From Gammaproteobacteria bacterium (lineage in GTDB: Bacteria > Pseudomonadota > Gammaproteobacteria > Methylococcales > Methylomonadaceae): a stretch of 40,156 nt of DNA. Position numbers and translations under genes: made by a program. The notes under the pieces were generated by a model. It searched no databases and was not told the origin of the DNA. It saw only the letters and a program-made list of their open reading frames with translations. Of this stretch, positions 1,099-39,647 are shown one piece after another (the first letter of the stretch is position 1; the number at the start of each line of letters is the position of its first letter). Location: NCBI GenBank assembly GCA_024277935.1, contig JAJRUF010000021.1:1-40156 (forward strand). Reading direction: 5' to 3'.

Positions 1099-1758
1099 AT
1101 GAGCAAATGTCTTCCAATTTTATATAGCTTCCGCAGATGCCCTTATGCAATGAGAGCAAGGCTAGCTATTGCCAGTTCATTAATATCTTTGGAACTTAGA
1201 GAGGTTATTTTACGCAATAAGCCTCTGTCACTACTTGATATATCGCCTAAAGGAACCGTTCCAGTCCTACTTTTAAACGATAACACTGTTATTGATGAAA
1301 GCTTAGATATTATGTACTGGGCTCTATCCATCAATGACCCTGAGCATTGGCTTATCCCTAACTTGGCAAGCGATATAAACCAACTTATCACATGGAATGA
1401 TGGGGATTTTAAATATTATTTGGACCGCTATAAATATGCGGATCGTTATCCTGCGCACAGTGAAAAATTTTATCGAGAAAAAGCTGAGTATTTTTTAATT
1501 GAGTTAGAAAATAGATTAGCAAAACAGCCATTTCTATGCGCTGAAAACTGTTGTTTAGCAGATATAGCTATATTTCCTTTTATTCGCCAATTTGCCAATG
1601 TAAATAATGATTGGTTTCAGCAGTCAAAATACCAAAAACTTAATCAATGGCTAAACAAACTACTACAATCACAACTGTTTATTTTAGTGATGGAAAAATA
1701 CCCCACTTGGCAACCACAAGATAAGCCACTAATATTCCAGCCACTATGTTCTAAATAG
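1099..1758 (+). CDS. Glutathione S-transferase-like protein
   Basis: This is a 219-residue protein with a thioredoxin-fold N-terminal domain (about 1-80) followed by an all-helical C-terminal domain (about 90-205), the GST layout. The N-terminus has YSFRRCPYAMRARLAI, in which CPY at 14-16 occupies the glutaredoxin/omega-GST catalytic position. The cis-proline segment GTVPVLLL (around 53-60) and the following DES are the usual glutathione-binding elements. It begins six bases after the persulfide dioxygenase gene and is likely co-transcribed with it. Its last 15 bases overlap the end of the convergent HDOD gene. The substrate cannot be told from sequence; glutathione-dependent thiol transfer or dehydration is the family norm. 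Confidence 0.8.
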   Translation: MSKCLPILYSFRRCPYAMRARLAIASSLISLELREVILRNKPLSLLDISPKGTVPVLLLNDNTVIDESLDIMYWALSINDPEHWLIPNLASDINQLITWNDGDFKYYLDRYKYADRYPAHSEKFYREKAEYFLIELENRLAKQPFLCAENCCLADIAIFPFIRQFANVNNDWFQQSKYQKLNQWLNKLLQSQLFILVMEKYPTWQPQDKPLIFQPLCSK

Positions 1759-3060
1759 ACTCATTGCCTCCGCTATTTGTTGTTTTGCATTTTGCAAAGT
1801 CTGTAATGACATATCGGGCGTTAACTCATTATTCCCGAGTTTTTGGAATGCTGGCAAAGTATAAATCGGCGGTAATTGTTGCCTTTGTTTACTCGTCATA
1901 TAGCTATGAAATTTTGCTAATAACACAATATCACTAATACTAAGTTCTGCTTGTTCATCCGTATACCAATTCTCAATATTTTTAGGTATTTGCTGCAAAT
2001 CATTAGGAAACCCCCAAGTTTTTAATACTAATGAGCCGATAATGCCTTGTAAAGCCATTATTGTTAAGTTTAAATCTTGCTCTGTATATTTATCACTATT
2101 CAAGGAATCTGCAAAAATTAAAATAGGTAAAGCTCCAATATTATGCGTTAAACCTGCAAGCAATGCTTCATCAGGATTCATTTTTTTAGTTAATACTGTC
2201 AAGGTATAGCTAATACTGGAAACTTCAATACTTTTCTTCCAAAGCGCATGAACTTTAACTTTAGTTTCTTTATTTTTACTTTTGAATAAATTTTGTATGC
2301 TTATACTTGTCACCAAGTTTCTGGTCGTCGCTAATCCTAACCTTGCCACAGCATCATGAGAGTTTGTTATAGGGTTTACTGCTCGGTACAAAGGGCTATT
2401 AACAATTTGAATAAGTCTTGAAGAAATAACTGAATCAAAGTTTATTATTTTAACGGCTTCTTGAATACCTATATCTTTTTGAATAGCTGACCTAAGTTTA
2501 AGGGCTACATCAGGAAGACAAGGAATAATAAGCTTATCTTGCTTAAAATAACGACAAAAGGCATCAAAGAAAGCATTATTTTTTAGGTTCTCAGGAATAT
2601 CTTGTGAGTTAAGTAGAGGGTTTCGGATATGCTGACTGCTTAAATTTAAAATACTTGCAGGAAAGTGTAAAATCTTGACCTCAGATTTTGCAATAATAGT
2701 ACATTGGAATTGCTTACTATTAGATAATGGATAAAGTGCTTTAAAGGTTGATCCATTAATTAAATAGCCAGAGCCATTAGCTGTTTCAATATGACACTGC
2801 CCTTTGAGCAAATAAGGTAATGAATTTGATTGCTCATTAATTTTAAAAATCACCTGTCCTGGAGCATGAGTTGAGACTTTCAGTTCAAGCTGTTGCAGCT
2901 CATAATCTGGCATATCACCAACAGGAACAAGGGTCTGCAGGAAAGCAACTGGTATTTTTTTTATCACCAAAGGACTAGCACTATTACTTGCATAAATTTC
3001 TTTATGGCTAATAAGCGGAGTCTCTTTTTTTATTGTTTTTTTTATACGATTCCAGAACAT
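1744..3060 (-). CDS. cNMP-binding-like domain + HDOD domain signalling protein
   Basis: In this 438-residue cytoplasmic protein, residues about 45-140 look like a cyclic-nucleotide-binding (CAP_ED) beta-barrel. Residues about 170-370 form an HDOD domain, recognisable from IIPCLPDVALKLRSAI, the LIQIVNSPLY segment, the DAVARLGL turn and GLTHNIGALPI. The last of these is the position where true HD phosphohydrolases have HD; here it is HN, as usual for non-catalytic HDOD proteins. HDOD proteins generally act as signalling scaffolds in motility, biofilm or stress responses; the target here is unknown. It is monocistronic by layout, converging on the GST gene (15-base overlap). Whether the N-terminal barrel binds a nucleotide cannot be judged, because the conserved phosphate-binding RxA motif is not obvious. 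Confidence 0.75.
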   Translation of the reverse strand: MFWNRIKKTIKKETPLISHKEIYASNSASPLVIKKIPVAFLQTLVPVGDMPDYELQQLELKVSTHAPGQVIFKINEQSNSLPYLLKGQCHIETANGSGYLINGSTFKALYPLSNSKQFQCTIIAKSEVKILHFPASILNLSSQHIRNPLLNSQDIPENLKNNAFFDAFCRYFKQDKLIIPCLPDVALKLRSAIQKDIGIQEAVKIINFDSVISSRLIQIVNSPLYRAVNPITNSHDAVARLGLATTRNLVTSISIQNLFKSKNKETKVKVHALWKKSIEVSSISYTLTVLTKKMNPDEALLAGLTHNIGALPILIFADSLNSDKYTEQDLNLTIMALQGIIGSLVLKTWGFPNDLQQIPKNIENWYTDEQAELSISDIVLLAKFHSYMTSKQRQQLPPIYTLPAFQKLGNNELTPDMSLQTLQNAKQQIAEAMSLFRT

Positions 3061-27932: not shown

Positions 27933-30743
27933 ATGGAAAAAACATACACCCCCCACTCAATAGAACAACGCTGGTATAAAATTTGGGAAGGTAAAGGCTA
28001 CTTTAAAGCAAAGCCCGAGGGCGAATCGTATTGTATTATGATCCCGCCTCCCAATGTCACAGGTAGTTTACATATGGGACATGCCTTTCAAGATACTATT
28101 ATGGATGCCCTAAGCCGCTACCATCGAATGAAAGGCAAAAGCACCTTATGGCAACCAGGTAGTGATCATGCAGGGATTGCCACGCAAATGGTGGTTGAAC
28201 GTATTGTCAATGCTGAGGGTAAAACACGCCATGACTACGGTAGGGAAAAGTTTGTTGAAAAAATTTGGCAATGGAAAGAAGAGTCAGGAAATACCATTAC
28301 CAAACAGCTTCGCCGCATGGGGAGCTCTTTAGATTGGGAAAAAGAACGTTTCACCATGGACGATGGCATGTCAGATGCCGTACAAGAAGTATTTATTAAG
28401 CTACATGAAGAAGGCCTAATCTATCGTGGTAAGCGACTTGTTAACTGGGATCCTGTATTACACACTGCTGTTTCTGATTTAGAAGTTTTATCTGAGGAAG
28501 AAAATGGCTTTATGTGGCATATGCGTTACCCCTTATCAAATGGCTCAGGCTATATGATCGTTGCCACTACTCGCCCAGAAACATTACTGGGTGATGTTGC
28601 TGTCGCTATCCACCCGGATGACGACCGCTACAAACACCTGTTAGGTGAGTTTTTAGAGCTCCCCTTAACAAACCGTCGTATTCCAATTATTGCAGATGAA
28701 CATGTAGACCCTGAGTTTGGTACGGGTTGTGTAAAAGTAACGCCTGCTCATGACTTTAATGATTATGATGTTTGGACTCGGCATAAAGATTTAGCCGCTA
28801 TTATGGATGCTCCTCATGGAGGGTTGATTAATATCTTTACTGAAGATGCGGCAATTCGCGCAAATGACGAAGGTGAAAATAATCTTATTCCAGAAAAGTA
28901 TATTGGTTTAGACCGTGTTGTAGCCCGTAAACAAATGGTTGCAGACCTAGATTCACAAGGCTTATTAGAAAAAGTCGAAAAGCATAAACTGGTTGTTCCT
29001 CGAGGCGATCGTTCAAATAGTATTATCGAACCTCTTTTAACTAATCAATGGTATGTAAAAGTAGGGCCCCTTGCTCAGCCCGCTATTGAAGCTGTTGAAA
29101 AGGGTGATATTAAATTTGTCCCGGATAACTGGAAAAATACTTATTTTGAATGGATGCGTAATATCCAGGATTGGTGTATTTCAAGACAAATCTGGTGGGG
29201 GCATAGAATCCCTGCCTGGTATGATGATGAAGACAATATCTATGTCGGCCGGTCTGAACAAGAAATCCGCGAAAAACATGGTTTAGCCGCTGATTATCCA
29301 CTAAGACAGGATGAAGATGTTTTAGACACTTGGTTCTCCTCTGCCTTATGGCCCTTTTCAACTTTGGGATGGCCAGAGAAAACAGCTGAATTAGCACAAC
29401 ATTATCCAACTAGTGTATTAGTTACAGGTTTTGATATTATCTTTTTTTGGGTTGCCAGAATGATTATGATTGGGCTTAAATTTCAAGGCGAAGTGCCTTT
29501 TAAAGAAGTTTATGTTCATGGCTTAGTCCGTGATGCCGAAGGGCAAAAAATGTCCAAATCAAAAGGTAATGTACTTGACCCCATTGACTTAATTGATGGT
29601 ATTGATTTAGAAGCTTTAGTTGAAAAACGCATGAGCGGTATGATGCAACCCCATCTACAAAAGAAAGTTGAGAAGGCTACTCGTAAACAATTCCCTGAGG
29701 GTATTCCTTCTTTTGGTACAGATGCCTTACGCTTTACCTTTGCATCATTGGCAACCACAGGTCGAGATATACGTTTTGATCTAGCGCGTGCAGAAGGCTA
29801 CCGTAATTTTTGTAATAAATTATGGAATGCTGCTCGTTATGTCTTAATGAATACTGAAGGCCAGGACAATGGCTTATCCGACGCGCCCTGTGAGTATTCA
29901 CAAGCAGATTTATGGATTACCTCCCGTTTAAACCAGGTAACGGCATCGACTAGCGAAGCAATAGAGGGTTACCGCTTTGATTTAGCCGCTCAAGCACTCT
30001 ATGAATTTACTTGGAATGAATACTGTGACTGGTATTTAGAATTAGCAAAAATTTCTCTGCAATCAGATAATGAAGCACTACAACGTGGAACACGTAAAAC
30101 ATTAGTCAATGTTTTAGAAAACATTCTACGTTTAAGCCACCCCATCATGCCCTTTATCACCGAAGAAATTTGGCAACGTGTTGCTCCATTAGCAGGGATT
30201 AGTACTGAAACTATTATGTTACAGCCCTACCCTGAAGCAGATAAGAATCAAATCAACCATGATGCCATTAATGCAACAAAGTGGATTATGGATTTTATTC
30301 TAGGGATACGCCGTATCCGTGGCGAAATGAATATTGCACCAGGAAAACCACTGCCAGTCTTATTACAAAACTGTACAGCAAGCGATTTAGTCTTTTTAGA
30401 ATCAAGCAAAGAATATCTATTAAAATTAGGTCGCGTTGAATCAATTACAGTTCTTTCGGCTGATGAAATTGCGCCTGAATCAGCTATTTCACTGGTTGGT
30501 GAAATGAAAATTCTAATCCCAATGGCAGGCTTAATCGATAAAGATGCAGAAATTGCACGTTTAGAAAAAGAAGTTGCCAAAATACAAAAAGATTTACCTC
30601 GTATTGAAGGCAAATTAAATAACCCAAAATTTATTGATAAAGCGCCGGAGGCGGTTATTAACAAAGAGAAAGAAAAATTAGCCACCCTGCAGTCTTCACT
30701 TAAAAACCTTGAAGAACAGCGGGTTAAAATTAAAGCTCTGTAA
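27933..30743 (+). CDS. valS: Valyl-tRNA synthetase
   Basis: The 936-residue class I synthetase charges tRNA(Val). The HIGH-type motif is H47-M-G-H50 in [13 protein letters not shown]. The KMSKS motif is at 539-543. An editing (CP1) domain lies between them with [19 protein letters not shown], and [17 protein letters not shown] is also diagnostic. The C-terminal 70 residues form the coiled-coil arm ([20 protein letters not shown]) that contacts the tRNA. The following HDOD-GAF gene begins four bases after its stop. Confidence 0.98.
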
Positions 30744-30747
30744 CCAT

Positions 30748-32190
30748 ATGCAAAAAGCGAAACAAAAGCCAGAGAATCTTCAATCACTTGAACAGTGGAC
30801 GAAGGTTCTTTGTGAGCAGGAAATGACTATTTTCTCCAACACTGCTCACAATATTTATAACTCAATAGATAAAAGGCAGGGAGCCATGGAACTGGCTTCC
30901 ATTATTTTGCAAGACCCTAACCTTACGGCAAAACTTCTCAAGGTAAGTAATAGCGTTCATTACAATCCCTCAAACCAAAAAATGAATACTATCTCTAGAG
31001 CCATTGTTATTTTAGGCTCTAATATCGTGCGTGAGCTAACGATTGCCTGTTCATTTTTTGAATCCATTATCTCCCCAGAAAATAAGCACCAAGCCAATAA
31101 AGAAATTGGACATGCCATTCATGCCGCAGTACAAGCGAAAGAAATAGCGATCCATTGTCATGATAAATCACCAGAAGAAGTTTTTATTGCCGCATTACTT
31201 AACAATATAGGTGCTATTTTATTCTGGTGTTTTGGTGGTGAGCAATGTAAATATATTACTGAGCTACTTAGTTCAGGACAATACACCCCAGAACAAGCGG
31301 AAGAAAAAGTGCTTGGTTTTACTCTTAAAGATTTGGGGGGAAGTCTTTGTAAATCCTGGAACCTTGGAGGCTTAATTGAAGAAGCCATAACAAGCCCCGA
31401 GCCCTCTAAAATTCGCCCTCAAATAGTCCATTTAAGCAATGAAATTGCACACTCAGCTGATAATGGCTGGAATTCTGAAGTAATGGATCAATGTTTAATC
31501 AAATTAGAGAAACTAACAGGTGAAGATTCATCTAAAATTGTCGTCCGCTTAAAAGACAACGCCATGTCTGCCGTTAAAATAGCCTGTAATTTTGGTGCGC
31601 ATGATGCTTCACAATTTATTCAAACAGACGAACCCTCTAGCCCGCCCACAGAACTCGTTACCGAAGTCTTAGATAAAAAACAAGTGCAGCTTCAAATCCT
31701 ACAAGATATAACCCAACACTTAAGTGGTAGCATTAACCTTAACCTACTTCTTGAAATGATTATTGAAGGCATTCATCGAGGACTTAGTATGGATAGATCG
31801 CTATTTTGCATACTGAGTACCGATAAAAAAACATTAACAGAAAAATTAGCACTCGGCTGGGCAAAACAGCTTAATGCACAGGCAAAAATAAAACTTGATG
31901 TCTCCAGCATCCCAGCCAATCTTTTTTTTAAAGCCATCAATTCCAGCTCAGGCATTTGGGCTAACCCCAAAAAAGATGCTGTTTTATTTACTCCAAATGT
32001 CATTAACCATATAGGTAAATCTGAATGTTTCCTTATCCCTATCCGTGCTGATAATAAAACAATTGGGTTGATCTACTCTGATCGTGCCACGCATAATCAA
32101 CCTTTAACAGAAGAGGACTTTAATGCCGCCAAGCACTTTTCCCAACAAGCCATTATTGGCTTAGCTTTGTATAAAATACAGAAAACATGA
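30748..32190 (+). CDS. HDOD domain + GAF domain signalling protein
   Basis: From ATG 30748 the protein has 480 residues; the open frame extends 13 codons upstream into valS, which is unlikely to be used. An HDOD domain (about 20-215) is recognised from ASIILQDPNLTAKLLKVSNS, SRAIVILGSNIVRELTIACS and FIAALLNNIGAILFW, in which the HD dyad has become NN. A linker leads to a GAF domain (about 315-475) with LQILQDITQHLSGSINLNLL, MDRSLFCIL and FLIPIRADNKTIGLIYSDR. It overlaps the two-receiver regulator downstream by four bases (ATGA), so the two are co-translated and probably act together. Ligand and output are unknown. Confidence 0.82.
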   Translation: MQKAKQKPENLQSLEQWTKVLCEQEMTIFSNTAHNIYNSIDKRQGAMELASIILQDPNLTAKLLKVSNSVHYNPSNQKMNTISRAIVILGSNIVRELTIACSFFESIISPENKHQANKEIGHAIHAAVQAKEIAIHCHDKSPEEVFIAALLNNIGAILFWCFGGEQCKYITELLSSGQYTPEQAEEKVLGFTLKDLGGSLCKSWNLGGLIEEAITSPEPSKIRPQIVHLSNEIAHSADNGWNSEVMDQCLIKLEKLTGEDSSKIVVRLKDNAMSAVKIACNFGAHDASQFIQTDEPSSPPTELVTEVLDKKQVQLQILQDITQHLSGSINLNLLLEMIIEGIHRGLSMDRSLFCILSTDKKTLTEKLALGWAKQLNAQAKIKLDVSSIPANLFFKAINSSSGIWANPKKDAVLFTPNVINHIGKSECFLIPIRADNKTIGLIYSDRATHNQPLTEEDFNAAKHFSQQAIIGLALYKIQKT

Positions 32191-32981
32191 ATGAAAAAGA
32201 GTTTATAGACTTACAAGTTTGTCTTGTAGAACCTTCAAGTACTCAACAACATATCATTAGAAAATTTCTTTTAGACCTAGGAATATCAAATATCACTTTA
32301 ATTGAATCGGGCAAGGATCTGCTCGCAATATTAAAACAAAGTTCCCCCGATTTAATCATCAGTTCTATGTACTTACCTGATATGACAGGAGCTGATTTGG
32401 TCCATGAAATTAGAAATGATTCTGATTCCTATGATATGGCTTTTTTATTAATCTCAAGCGAAACTAACCTTAACTATTTAGACCCCATTCGGCAAGCCGG
32501 TGCCATTGCTATTTTACCCAAACCTTTTACAAGCAAGGATTTAGATGTCGCATTGTCGGCTACTCTAGACTATTTAAACCCACAACAAGTTGAACTTGAG
32601 CATTTAGATATCGACGATATAAATGTTCTGGTGGTTGATGATAGCCTAACCTCTTTAAAATATATCTGCAAAATTCTTAATGATATTGGTATTGAGCAAA
32701 TCACTCAGGCAACAAATGGCCAACAAGCATTTGAATTAATTAGTGAGCATTTATTTGACCTCATAGTGACTGATTTTAATATGCCTGAAATGGACGGTTT
32801 ACAACTAACAAACTCTATTCGTTCCGAAAGTAGCCAGCAATCAATCCCCATTCTAATGCTGACTAGTGAACAAAATGAAAGCCGCTTAGCGGCTGTAAAA
32901 AAAGCAGGCGTTTCTGCCATTCTAGACAAACCATTTGAACCTGCATCTATCAGAAAGTTAATTGCTCAGCTACTCAACTAA
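32187..32981 (+). CDS. Tandem receiver-domain response regulator with a degenerate first receiver
   Basis: The 264-residue protein consists of two CheY-like receivers (about 9-130 and 145-264) and no output domain. The second is complete: D151-D152, phospho-acceptor D196 in IVTDFNMPEMDG, T226 and K248. In the first, the acidic pair is E15-P16 and the phospho-acceptor position is S60 (IISSMYLPDMTG), while S90 and K112 remain. It therefore should not be phosphorylated in the normal way. Coupled translation with the HDOD-GAF gene suggests the pair forms one signalling unit. No histidine kinase is encoded nearby. Confidence 0.87.
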   Translation: MNEKEFIDLQVCLVEPSSTQQHIIRKFLLDLGISNITLIESGKDLLAILKQSSPDLIISSMYLPDMTGADLVHEIRNDSDSYDMAFLLISSETNLNYLDPIRQAGAIAILPKPFTSKDLDVALSATLDYLNPQQVELEHLDIDDINVLVVDDSLTSLKYICKILNDIGIEQITQATNGQQAFELISEHLFDLIVTDFNMPEMDGLQLTNSIRSESSQQSIPILMLTSEQNESRLAAVKKAGVSAILDKPFEPASIRKLIAQLLN

Positions 32982-33144: not shown

Positions 33145-33175
33145 CATAATTAGCAGCACTTAATCCATTATTTTG

Positions 33176-33287
33176 AACCACGGAATACACTGAGAGCACA
33201 GAGGAGAGCAAGGTAAAATTATTCACCTCCTTTCAATAACGGCTCTAGCTCATTAAAATCTCAGTGATCTCTCTGTACTCCGTGGTT
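33176..33287. repeat. 112-bp MITE-like element with terminal inverted repeats
   Basis: The left end AACCACGGAATACACTGAGA and the right end, read in reverse complement as AACCACGGAGTACAGAGAGA, form about 20-bp imperfect terminal inverted repeats. The first nine bases are identical. There is no gene inside. A truncated copy in opposite orientation occurs at 39566-39647. The AACCACGGAGTACAC end is a motif I associate with widespread dispersed repeats. Confidence 0.75.
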
Positions 33288-33490
33288 AAACAGCTCTTAA
33301 ATAACAACATTATAGGTCTTTATAGGTCTTTGATTTTATTATTCTCTGATTAATAACCAAGCGAAGCCTAATGCCTGCTTATGCAAAAGTACAGATTTGA
33401 GCCACTACCACTTTTTCAAAATTTTTCACTTTAAAATAAGGTTATAATAAATTTCCTTCTAATAATTTATAATAAAAAAAGGTGAGTTTA

Positions 33491-33898
33491 ATGAAAAAAT
33501 ATATTTTAGTCTCTGTATTAGCCACTACATTAAGTTTATTATCCACAGGAGTCTACGCGACAGGCGGTCACGGTGCTGGTGGGGGAGGTGGCGGCAATAA
33601 AAGTGGCGGAAAGTGCAACACAACCTCTATTAGTCGTTTTTTACCCGGACACCTTAAAACTGTTGCTCCAAAATCTAAATTTTCTTTTTGGGTCAAAGGG
33701 ATAAGAAACCCAGATGTTATTAAGGTAACTGCAAAAAAACTCCCCGTTGAACTATCTGTTAAAGATAAAAGCTCATTCTTTTTAGTAACAGGTACTTTAC
33801 CTGCTTCTTTATCTAATACAGTAGCAAGAATTCAAGTTATCGTTCATGAACCAAGATGCCCAGCTGATAAAGGTTGGTTATTAAAAATTACGGAATAA
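33491..33898 (+). CDS. Secreted glycine-rich-linker protein, function unknown
   Basis: The start at ATG 33491 follows AGGTGA at a five-base spacing, giving 135 residues; a GTG at 33482 would put that site inside the gene. The signal peptide covers 1-23 (ending VYA). A short flexible stretch TGGHGAGGGGGGNKSGGK comes next, then a compact domain of about 90 residues rich in beta-type sequence (FSFWVKGIRNPDVIKVTAKK, SSFFLVTGTLPA, VARIQVIVHEPRC). Two cysteines (in GGKCNTT and EPRCPAD) may form a disulfide. No family is recognised. It stands alone between repeat-rich spacers. Confidence 0.7.
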   Translation: MKKYILVSVLATTLSLLSTGVYATGGHGAGGGGGGNKSGGKCNTTSISRFLPGHLKTVAPKSKFSFWVKGIRNPDVIKVTAKKLPVELSVKDKSSFFLVTGTLPASLSNTVARIQVIVHEPRCPADKGWLLKITE

Positions 33899-39565: not shown

Positions 39566-39647
39566 AACCACGGAGTACACAGAGATCACTGAGATTTTAA
39601 TGAGCAAGAGCCTTTATTGAAACGTAATGAATAATTTTACCTTACTC
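39566..39647. repeat. Truncated, inverted copy of the MITE-like element
   Basis: From AACCACGGAGTACACAGAGA onward these 82 bases match the reverse complement of about 33210-33287, with a handful of mismatches, through AATAATTTTACCTTACTC. The far terminal repeat is absent, so it is a one-ended copy. It lies between ubiB and the last gene. Confidence 0.75.

Follow-up and report, generated by a model that had tools for sequence, protein, structure and literature searches.

An HDOD-GAF gene overlapping the gene for a double receiver with a pseudo-receiver in Methylococcales

Results

The two overlapping genes and their surroundings

The DNA that we analyzed, here called the window, is a stretch of 40,156 nucleotides on contig C188 of the draft genome G000 (3.28 Mb), and the relatives of the gene pair described here are Methylococcales. 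On the forward strand, a gene that we take from its sequence to be valS (positions 27933..30743), and that is the upstream neighbor in many relatives too, is followed by an HDOD-GAF gene (30748..32190, 480 amino acids on translation) whose start lies 4 bases past the valS stop at 30743. The next gene, also on the forward strand (32187..32981, 264 amino acids on translation), codes for a protein with two Response_reg stretches and no output domain, which we call the double receiver. Translation of the frames from 30748 and 32187 confirms that they share bases 32187..32190 (forward strand), an ATGA in which the stop codon TGA of the first gene and the start codon ATG of the second overlap, and the tight coupling to the HDOD-GAF gene that the first-pass annotation had claimed is supported. 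That annotation also held that a kinase must come from elsewhere, and we recognized no kinase gene next to the pair in the window. The predicted structures (mean pLDDT 88.3 and 85.9) comprise two receiver folds for the one protein, and an HDOD fold and a GAF fold for the other.

On the 3' side of the pair there is an imperfect inverted repeat (33173-33290) with 31-nt arms that are 81% complementary, and an ORF of 138 amino acids (33482-33898, forward strand) with a hydrophobic N-terminus, a Gly-rich stretch and no Pfam match. An 18-base piece of the inverted repeat has seven copies in the genome, including itself, at two mismatches or fewer (control, 0), and recurs once in the window in the opposite orientation, at 39566-39583. 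The block between these repeat copies contains HslV- and HslU-like, UbiE and ABC1 genes. Because the copies flank it, the block may have moved here, displacing the pilB genes of the relatives.

The HDOD domain lacks the HD pair

Residues 36-215 of the first protein (30853..31392, forward strand) form an HDOD domain, with a Pfam match to PF08668 (E = 1e-35) whose score of 123.5 bits is far above the curated cut-off of 22.9, and a fold match to 3hc1 (Z 23.4, rmsd 3.8, 270 residues aligned). At codons 152-153 (31201..31206, forward strand) the catalytic HD pair of the HD/HD-GYP phosphohydrolases is replaced by NN, as had been noted from the first reading, but such replacements are common among HDOD domains. 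The pair is missing from all 42 sequences of our first set. Of the 74 distinct sequences in an extended set, 68 cover both domains, three are HDODs of the window genome that stand alone, and three are truncated or retain little of the GAF region; the HD pair is missing from 67 of the 68 HDOD-GAF sequences (the exception being the distant L184) and from all three of the incomplete sequences, and is present in two of the three stand-alone HDODs. The window genome has 12 other HDODs, and five of the eight of these that were read lack the pair. HDOD is described in PMC6543031 as lacking HD-GYP phosphodiesterase activity. Since absence of the pair is so common, NN tells us no more than that this domain is probably not an enzyme. 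A second HDOD protein is encoded in the window on the reverse strand (1744-3060, 438 amino acids), with a cyclic-nucleotide-binding domain (27.9 bits against a cut-off of 27.5) N-terminal to its HDOD.

The GAF domain (residues 331-471; 31738..32160, forward strand) falls below the Pfam cut-off by sequence (best E = 0.00067, 20.5 bits against a cut-off of 27). Its assignment is supported by fold: in the predicted model, residues ~305-480 match the GAF structures 2zmf_A (Z 16.1, rmsd 3.5, 165 aligned) and 3ci6_A (Z 16.1, rmsd 4.0, 153 aligned), so the C-terminal part of the modeled protein has a GAF fold.

The first receiver has no acidic acceptor in any family member

Receiver 1 of the double receiver (approximately residues 9-130; 32211..32576, forward strand) carries E15, P16, S60, S90 and K112. 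Aligned with receiver 2, it has Ser at the phospho-acceptor position, codon 60 (32364..32366, forward strand). Receiver 2 (residues 147-259; 32625..32963, forward strand) has D151, D152, D196, T226 and K248, and its predicted phospho-acceptor, by alignment and by comparison with the family, is D196 (codon at 32772..32774, forward strand). Judged by its residues, receiver 1 is thus a pseudo-receiver, matching the receiver family while lacking the residues for phosphotransfer, and receiver 2 is canonical. Residues and Pfam matches both agree with the combination first proposed for this protein, a pseudo-receiver (E15-P16, S60) followed by an intact receiver (D196), with no output domain.

We then compared 133 distinct full-length double receivers, drawn from the matches listed for the order- and class-level genome samples described below and defined by a score of at least 230 bits against the family profile. 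This set excludes G511, in which two stops interrupt the frame and the best fragment scores 159 bits, the partial matches in G121, G124 and G144:C172, hybrid kinases, and proteins that match in receiver 2 only. The acceptor position of receiver 1 is Ala in 70 sequences, Ser in 56, Thr in 4, Asn in 2 and Arg in 1, and is acidic in none. The annotation had described a first receiver that lost its acceptor, but this is not a loss in this protein, and a relative with an intact first receiver, which would speak against the proposal, does not occur among the 133. The expected conservation of S60 holds in so far as the position is non-acidic throughout, but not for Ser itself. Because Ala is the more frequent residue, S60 is not in itself the key feature, and we reject it as an alternative phospho-acceptor: Ala also outnumbers Ser, by 8 to 6, in the 14 proteins that are encoded next to an HDOD-GAF gene.

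The pocket of receiver 1 is nearly invariant though it has no acceptor. E15 and S17 are each kept in 132 sequences (with a gap in the other one), S59 in 132 (Cys in one), S90 in 132 (Thr in one), and K112 and P113 in all 133, and the second acidic position, P16, is Pro in 130 (Ala in two, a gap in one). The odd sequences of the set include L242, whose start is missing and whose gene is interrupted by a stop codon, and L274 and L276, which carry A16 and N60. L274 (G416) and L276 (G306), like L158 (G214) and L069 (G008), have two adjacent copies of the double receiver gene.

Receiver 2 has D151, D152, D196 and K248, and Thr or Ser at position 226, in all 133 sequences. It also has Asn at D+2 in 128 of 133 and Glu at T+2 in 126 of 133, the same pair as in E. 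coli CheY, where it suits fast turnover. At position K-3 there is no Tyr or Phe in any receiver 1, and Phe in only two of 133 in receiver 2. One of these two residues occupies the position in 86% of receivers according to a perspective article (PMC12632262, section 7), so the usual aromatic switch is nearly absent from both receivers of the family.

Partial conservation of the gene pair

In an order-level sample of 151 genomes, made up of the window genome plus 150 relatives, we found HDOD-GAF genes in 41 genomes and full-length double receivers in 50. An HDOD-GAF gene was counted if its match reached roughly E = 1e-70, and a 48% identical HDOD-GAF fragment in G052 was left out. Both are present in 30 genomes, compared to an expectation of 13.6 that ignores relatedness and signaling load. 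The 41 HDOD-GAF genomes divide into 14 in which the two genes are adjacent, 16 with a double receiver elsewhere, and 11 in which we found none; conversely, 20 of the 50 double-receiver genomes have no HDOD-GAF gene. Some of the genomes with just one of the two genes are incomplete drafts. The adjacent pair occurs in G000, G003, G005, G007, G018, G027, G040, G044, G049, G066, G083, G088, G090 and G097, where the L039 and G005 loci are counted as one genome (the HDOD-GAF protein of L039 is 83% identical to that of the window). These 14 genomes belong to two families, f1 and f8, and the pair follows valS in them, although valS is not within the short stretch available from G003. The spacing between the two genes is -4 to +3 bases in nine of them; the overlaps of 8 to 71 bases in the other five depend on the choice of the longest reading frame.

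Either gene also occurs alone. Conservation of the pair is thus partial, which speaks in part against the proposal of the annotation: the genes are adjacent in 14 of 151 genomes but unlinked in many relatives. The slot after valS contains an HDOD-GAF gene and no receiver in f4 (L094, L095, L096, L100 and L101) and f2 (L099), and a double receiver and no HDOD-GAF gene in f7 (L113, L114, L116 and L117) and at L110 of G073 in f1. HDOD-GAF genes lie elsewhere than in this slot in g5, g10 and g15. Downstream of the slot, several f1, f2, f4 and f8 genomes have pilB and pilD, identified by Pfam matches of a cluster member, and genes that we presume from gene order to be pilC, coaE and zapD.

We also examined a class-level sample of 369 genomes, three of which (G000, G017 and G096) are in the order sample too. 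Here an HDOD-GAF gene was counted if its match extended over the greater part of the protein or had an E-value below 1e-40. The HDOD-only matches in G391 and G486 were dropped, as were matches to receiver 2 only. HDOD-GAF genes are present in 39 genomes, double receivers in 61, and both in 20 compared to 6.4 expected, mostly not adjacent. Because the co-occurrence tests ignore relatedness, we regard them as suggestive only. No adjacent pair was seen outside the order among the class-sample loci examined. Few neighbors of the double receiver are common to different loci in this sample, where a minority of the neighbors have an assigned identity, and we rejected class-wide gene context as a guide to function.

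In a rapidly built tree of 73 double-receiver sequences, the 14 HDOD-linked ones fall within one larger group (support 93) that also includes the valS-linked double receivers of f7 and a small number from other families. Linkage changes three times on this tree, in which several forks are weakly supported, so it perhaps goes back to a single event, combined with some losses or with independent placement. The window genome has a second double receiver (G000:C130:10063-10836, reverse strand) in a different group of the tree; it sits after genes that cluster with those for a cytochrome c and for a molybdopterin oxidoreductase in G049.

We tentatively favor the reading that the two overlapping genes together encode one response regulator in split form, with the HDOD-GAF protein as one lineage-specific partner of the double receiver, though we hold it at somewhat less than an even chance. 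Its main rival, which is possible but doubtful, is that the two genes share a neighborhood and nothing more: signaling genes would gather in the valS-pilB slot, the HDOD-GAF protein would act independently, and the double receiver would be a free CheY-like protein with unlinked targets. That the slot can hold both genes or either one of them is in line with such gathering, as is the scarcity of common double-receiver neighbors in the class sample, but the near-zero spacing in nine of the 14 linked genomes speaks against mere neighborhood, as does the co-occurrence of the two genes where they are not adjacent.

Kinases near relatives of the two genes

Using one histidine-kinase query, we found hybrid histidine kinases adjoining the double receiver in three relatives, a number that is a lower bound because many loci have short flanks. 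In G100 there is a hybrid kinase on each side, the larger one with a REC-REC-Hpt arrangement; in G146 the adjoining hybrid kinase has ~1530 amino acids and also has REC-REC-Hpt; and in G367 a kinase of 580 amino acids lies 4 bases from the double receiver, among otherwise unrelated identified neighbors (Maf, DsbA-like, acetyl-CoA synthetase, peptidase M1 and pyruvate dehydrogenase). At L241 of G043 there is a weak kinase match 317 bases away. The adjoining hybrid kinases tie the double receiver family to histidine-aspartate signaling.

They are also what would be expected if the double receiver were a connector or phosphate sink of a hybrid-kinase phosphorelay, with receiver 2 draining the Hpt domain, receiver 1 binding the kinase or Hpt, and the HDOD-GAF gene incidental. 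Hpt domains in two of the three genomes and the CheY-like residues at D+2 and T+2 point the same way, but kinase linkage is seen in just three genomes, as a minimum, and we consider a connector or sink of this kind unlikely.

When the G146 and G367 kinases were used as queries (the G100 pair was not), the best match in the window genome was G000:C59:1900-5637, a protein of 1246 amino acids with the order HisKA-HATPase-REC-REC-Hpt. We do not name it as the cognate kinase on this ground: 94 of the 151 genomes match it at E = 1e-130 or better, so the best-match result does not argue for pairing. Nine genomes contain the strongest matches of this protein (below 1e-200), and eight of them, all but G006, have a double receiver; this observation is post hoc and no more than a lead.

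G100 and G146 also have a homolog of the HDOD-GAF protein fused behind a Ser/Thr protein kinase (L102:4241-6853 and L108:4368-6833; 870 and 821 amino acids, Pkinase domains at E = 2.8e-53 and 2.8e-57), with a GAF-like region after the HDOD. Such fusions would fit a role of the HDOD-GAF protein in Ser/Thr kinase signaling, with the receiver pair modulating that kinase. They are confined to one genus group (g37), however, and of the 23 genomes (out of 151) that encode a relative of the kinase at E = 1e-40 or better, only four have an HDOD-GAF gene, compared to six expected from the overall 41 of 151. A Ser/Thr kinase as a partner shared by the HDOD-GAF genomes is therefore not supported, and we think this role very improbable.

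Discussion

Parts of this arrangement are already known. FrzZ of Myxococcus xanthus has tandem receivers, both phosphorylatable, and the double receiver has the same makeup of two tandem receivers and nothing else, but its receiver 1 has no acidic acceptor residue. FrzZ-like regulators are described with two receiver domains in tandem in PMC4618731. A regulator of the FrzZ type would be part of a chemosensory pathway with a CheA-type kinase; among the minority of double-receiver neighbors with an assigned identity, there are hybrid histidine kinases in three relatives. PleD combines a receiver, a pseudo-receiver and a diguanylate cyclase, and thus resembles the double receiver in having a receiver and a pseudo-receiver in cis, but the order of the two is reversed here and by Pfam there is no C-terminal GGDEF. 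In PleD, phosphorylation changes the contact between receiver and pseudo-receiver (PMC12632262, section 19). Over its whole length, the double receiver matches the folds of PleD and 3luf/3mf4 best, though the domain arrangement fits poorly (TM-score to query 0.42-0.45, rmsd 8-13).

A third precedent is control of an HDOD protein by a two-component system. MmoQ, from the methane monooxygenase cluster of Methylococcus capsulatus, has an HDOD of the same superfamily and carries its own receiver, whereas in the pair described here a second protein carries the receivers, and the HDOD is joined by a GAF domain. The HDOD profile matches 3ljx, deposited as 'MmoQ Response regulator' (E = 4e-15), and Foldseek gives 3p3q_B; MmoQ is absent among the 50 VIA-align matches listed. 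MmoQ and MmoS are described as a two-component system (PMC7994243), and HDOD is named among the output domains associated with Asp-less receivers (PMC4395418). HDOD proteins of the SadB, HdpA and GsmR type have regulatory roles and, as is probable for the domain here, no phosphodiesterase activity, but the portion of PMC6543031 at hand mentions neither a GAF domain nor a receiver partner for them. The SadB structure 9qzk_A matches the HDOD with Z 19.9 (rmsd 4.0, 263 aligned).

Tandem receivers (FrzZ), a pseudo-receiver in cis (PleD) and an HDOD under two-component control (MmoQ, 3ljx/3p3q) are thus established. In the literature that we searched, which covers few subscription journals, we found no description of the gene pair or of the double-receiver family. 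What is new, as far as that literature goes, is a leading, strictly conserved pseudo-receiver joined to a CheY-like receiver with no output domain, and a putative HDOD-GAF partner in trans.

If the two genes do form one regulator in split form, D196 of receiver 2, which has all the residues for this, would be phosphorylated by a hybrid histidine kinase whose gene lies elsewhere. The preserved pocket of the Asp-less receiver 1 could be a fixed docking or dimerization face, or another binding or sensing site, and phosphorylation of D196 would alter how both receivers present themselves to partners. In the window's lineage, the HDOD-GAF protein would be one such partner, as the gene overlap and the co-occurrence suggest, with its HDOD domain serving as a binding output and not as an enzyme, and its GAF domain as a second input. 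Such a regulator is supported by the adjacency after valS in 14 genomes, the co-occurrence above expectation, the receiver 2 residues kept in 133 of 133 sequences, the adjoining hybrid kinases, the near-invariant pocket of receiver 1 and the reported combinations of HDOD with receivers; against it we count the genes found alone (11 of 41 and 20 of 50 genomes) and the absence of adjacency outside the order. The partnership of the two proteins is plausible, and unproven.

A bolder proposal is that the double receiver acts as a switch which is widespread among Gammaproteobacteria and has retained its pseudo-receiver pocket for a new, non-phosphate input, and that together with the HDOD-GAF protein it relays a histidine-aspartate signal to Ser/Thr kinase signaling. 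We draw this link because in one genus group the double receiver lies beside Hpt hybrid kinases and the HDOD-GAF homolog is fused to a Ser/Thr kinase, and in the window's lineage the ATGA pair joins the two genes, but we consider it improbable.

How bacterial pseudo-receivers switch was called a mystery in a 2025 perspective (PMC12632262). The family described here is a small, output-less protein, found in many Gammaproteobacteria, which couples a true receiver in cis to a pseudo-receiver whose pocket is almost invariant, and which in one lineage has a likely partner gene. It opens the cis control of a pseudo-receiver to simple biochemistry.
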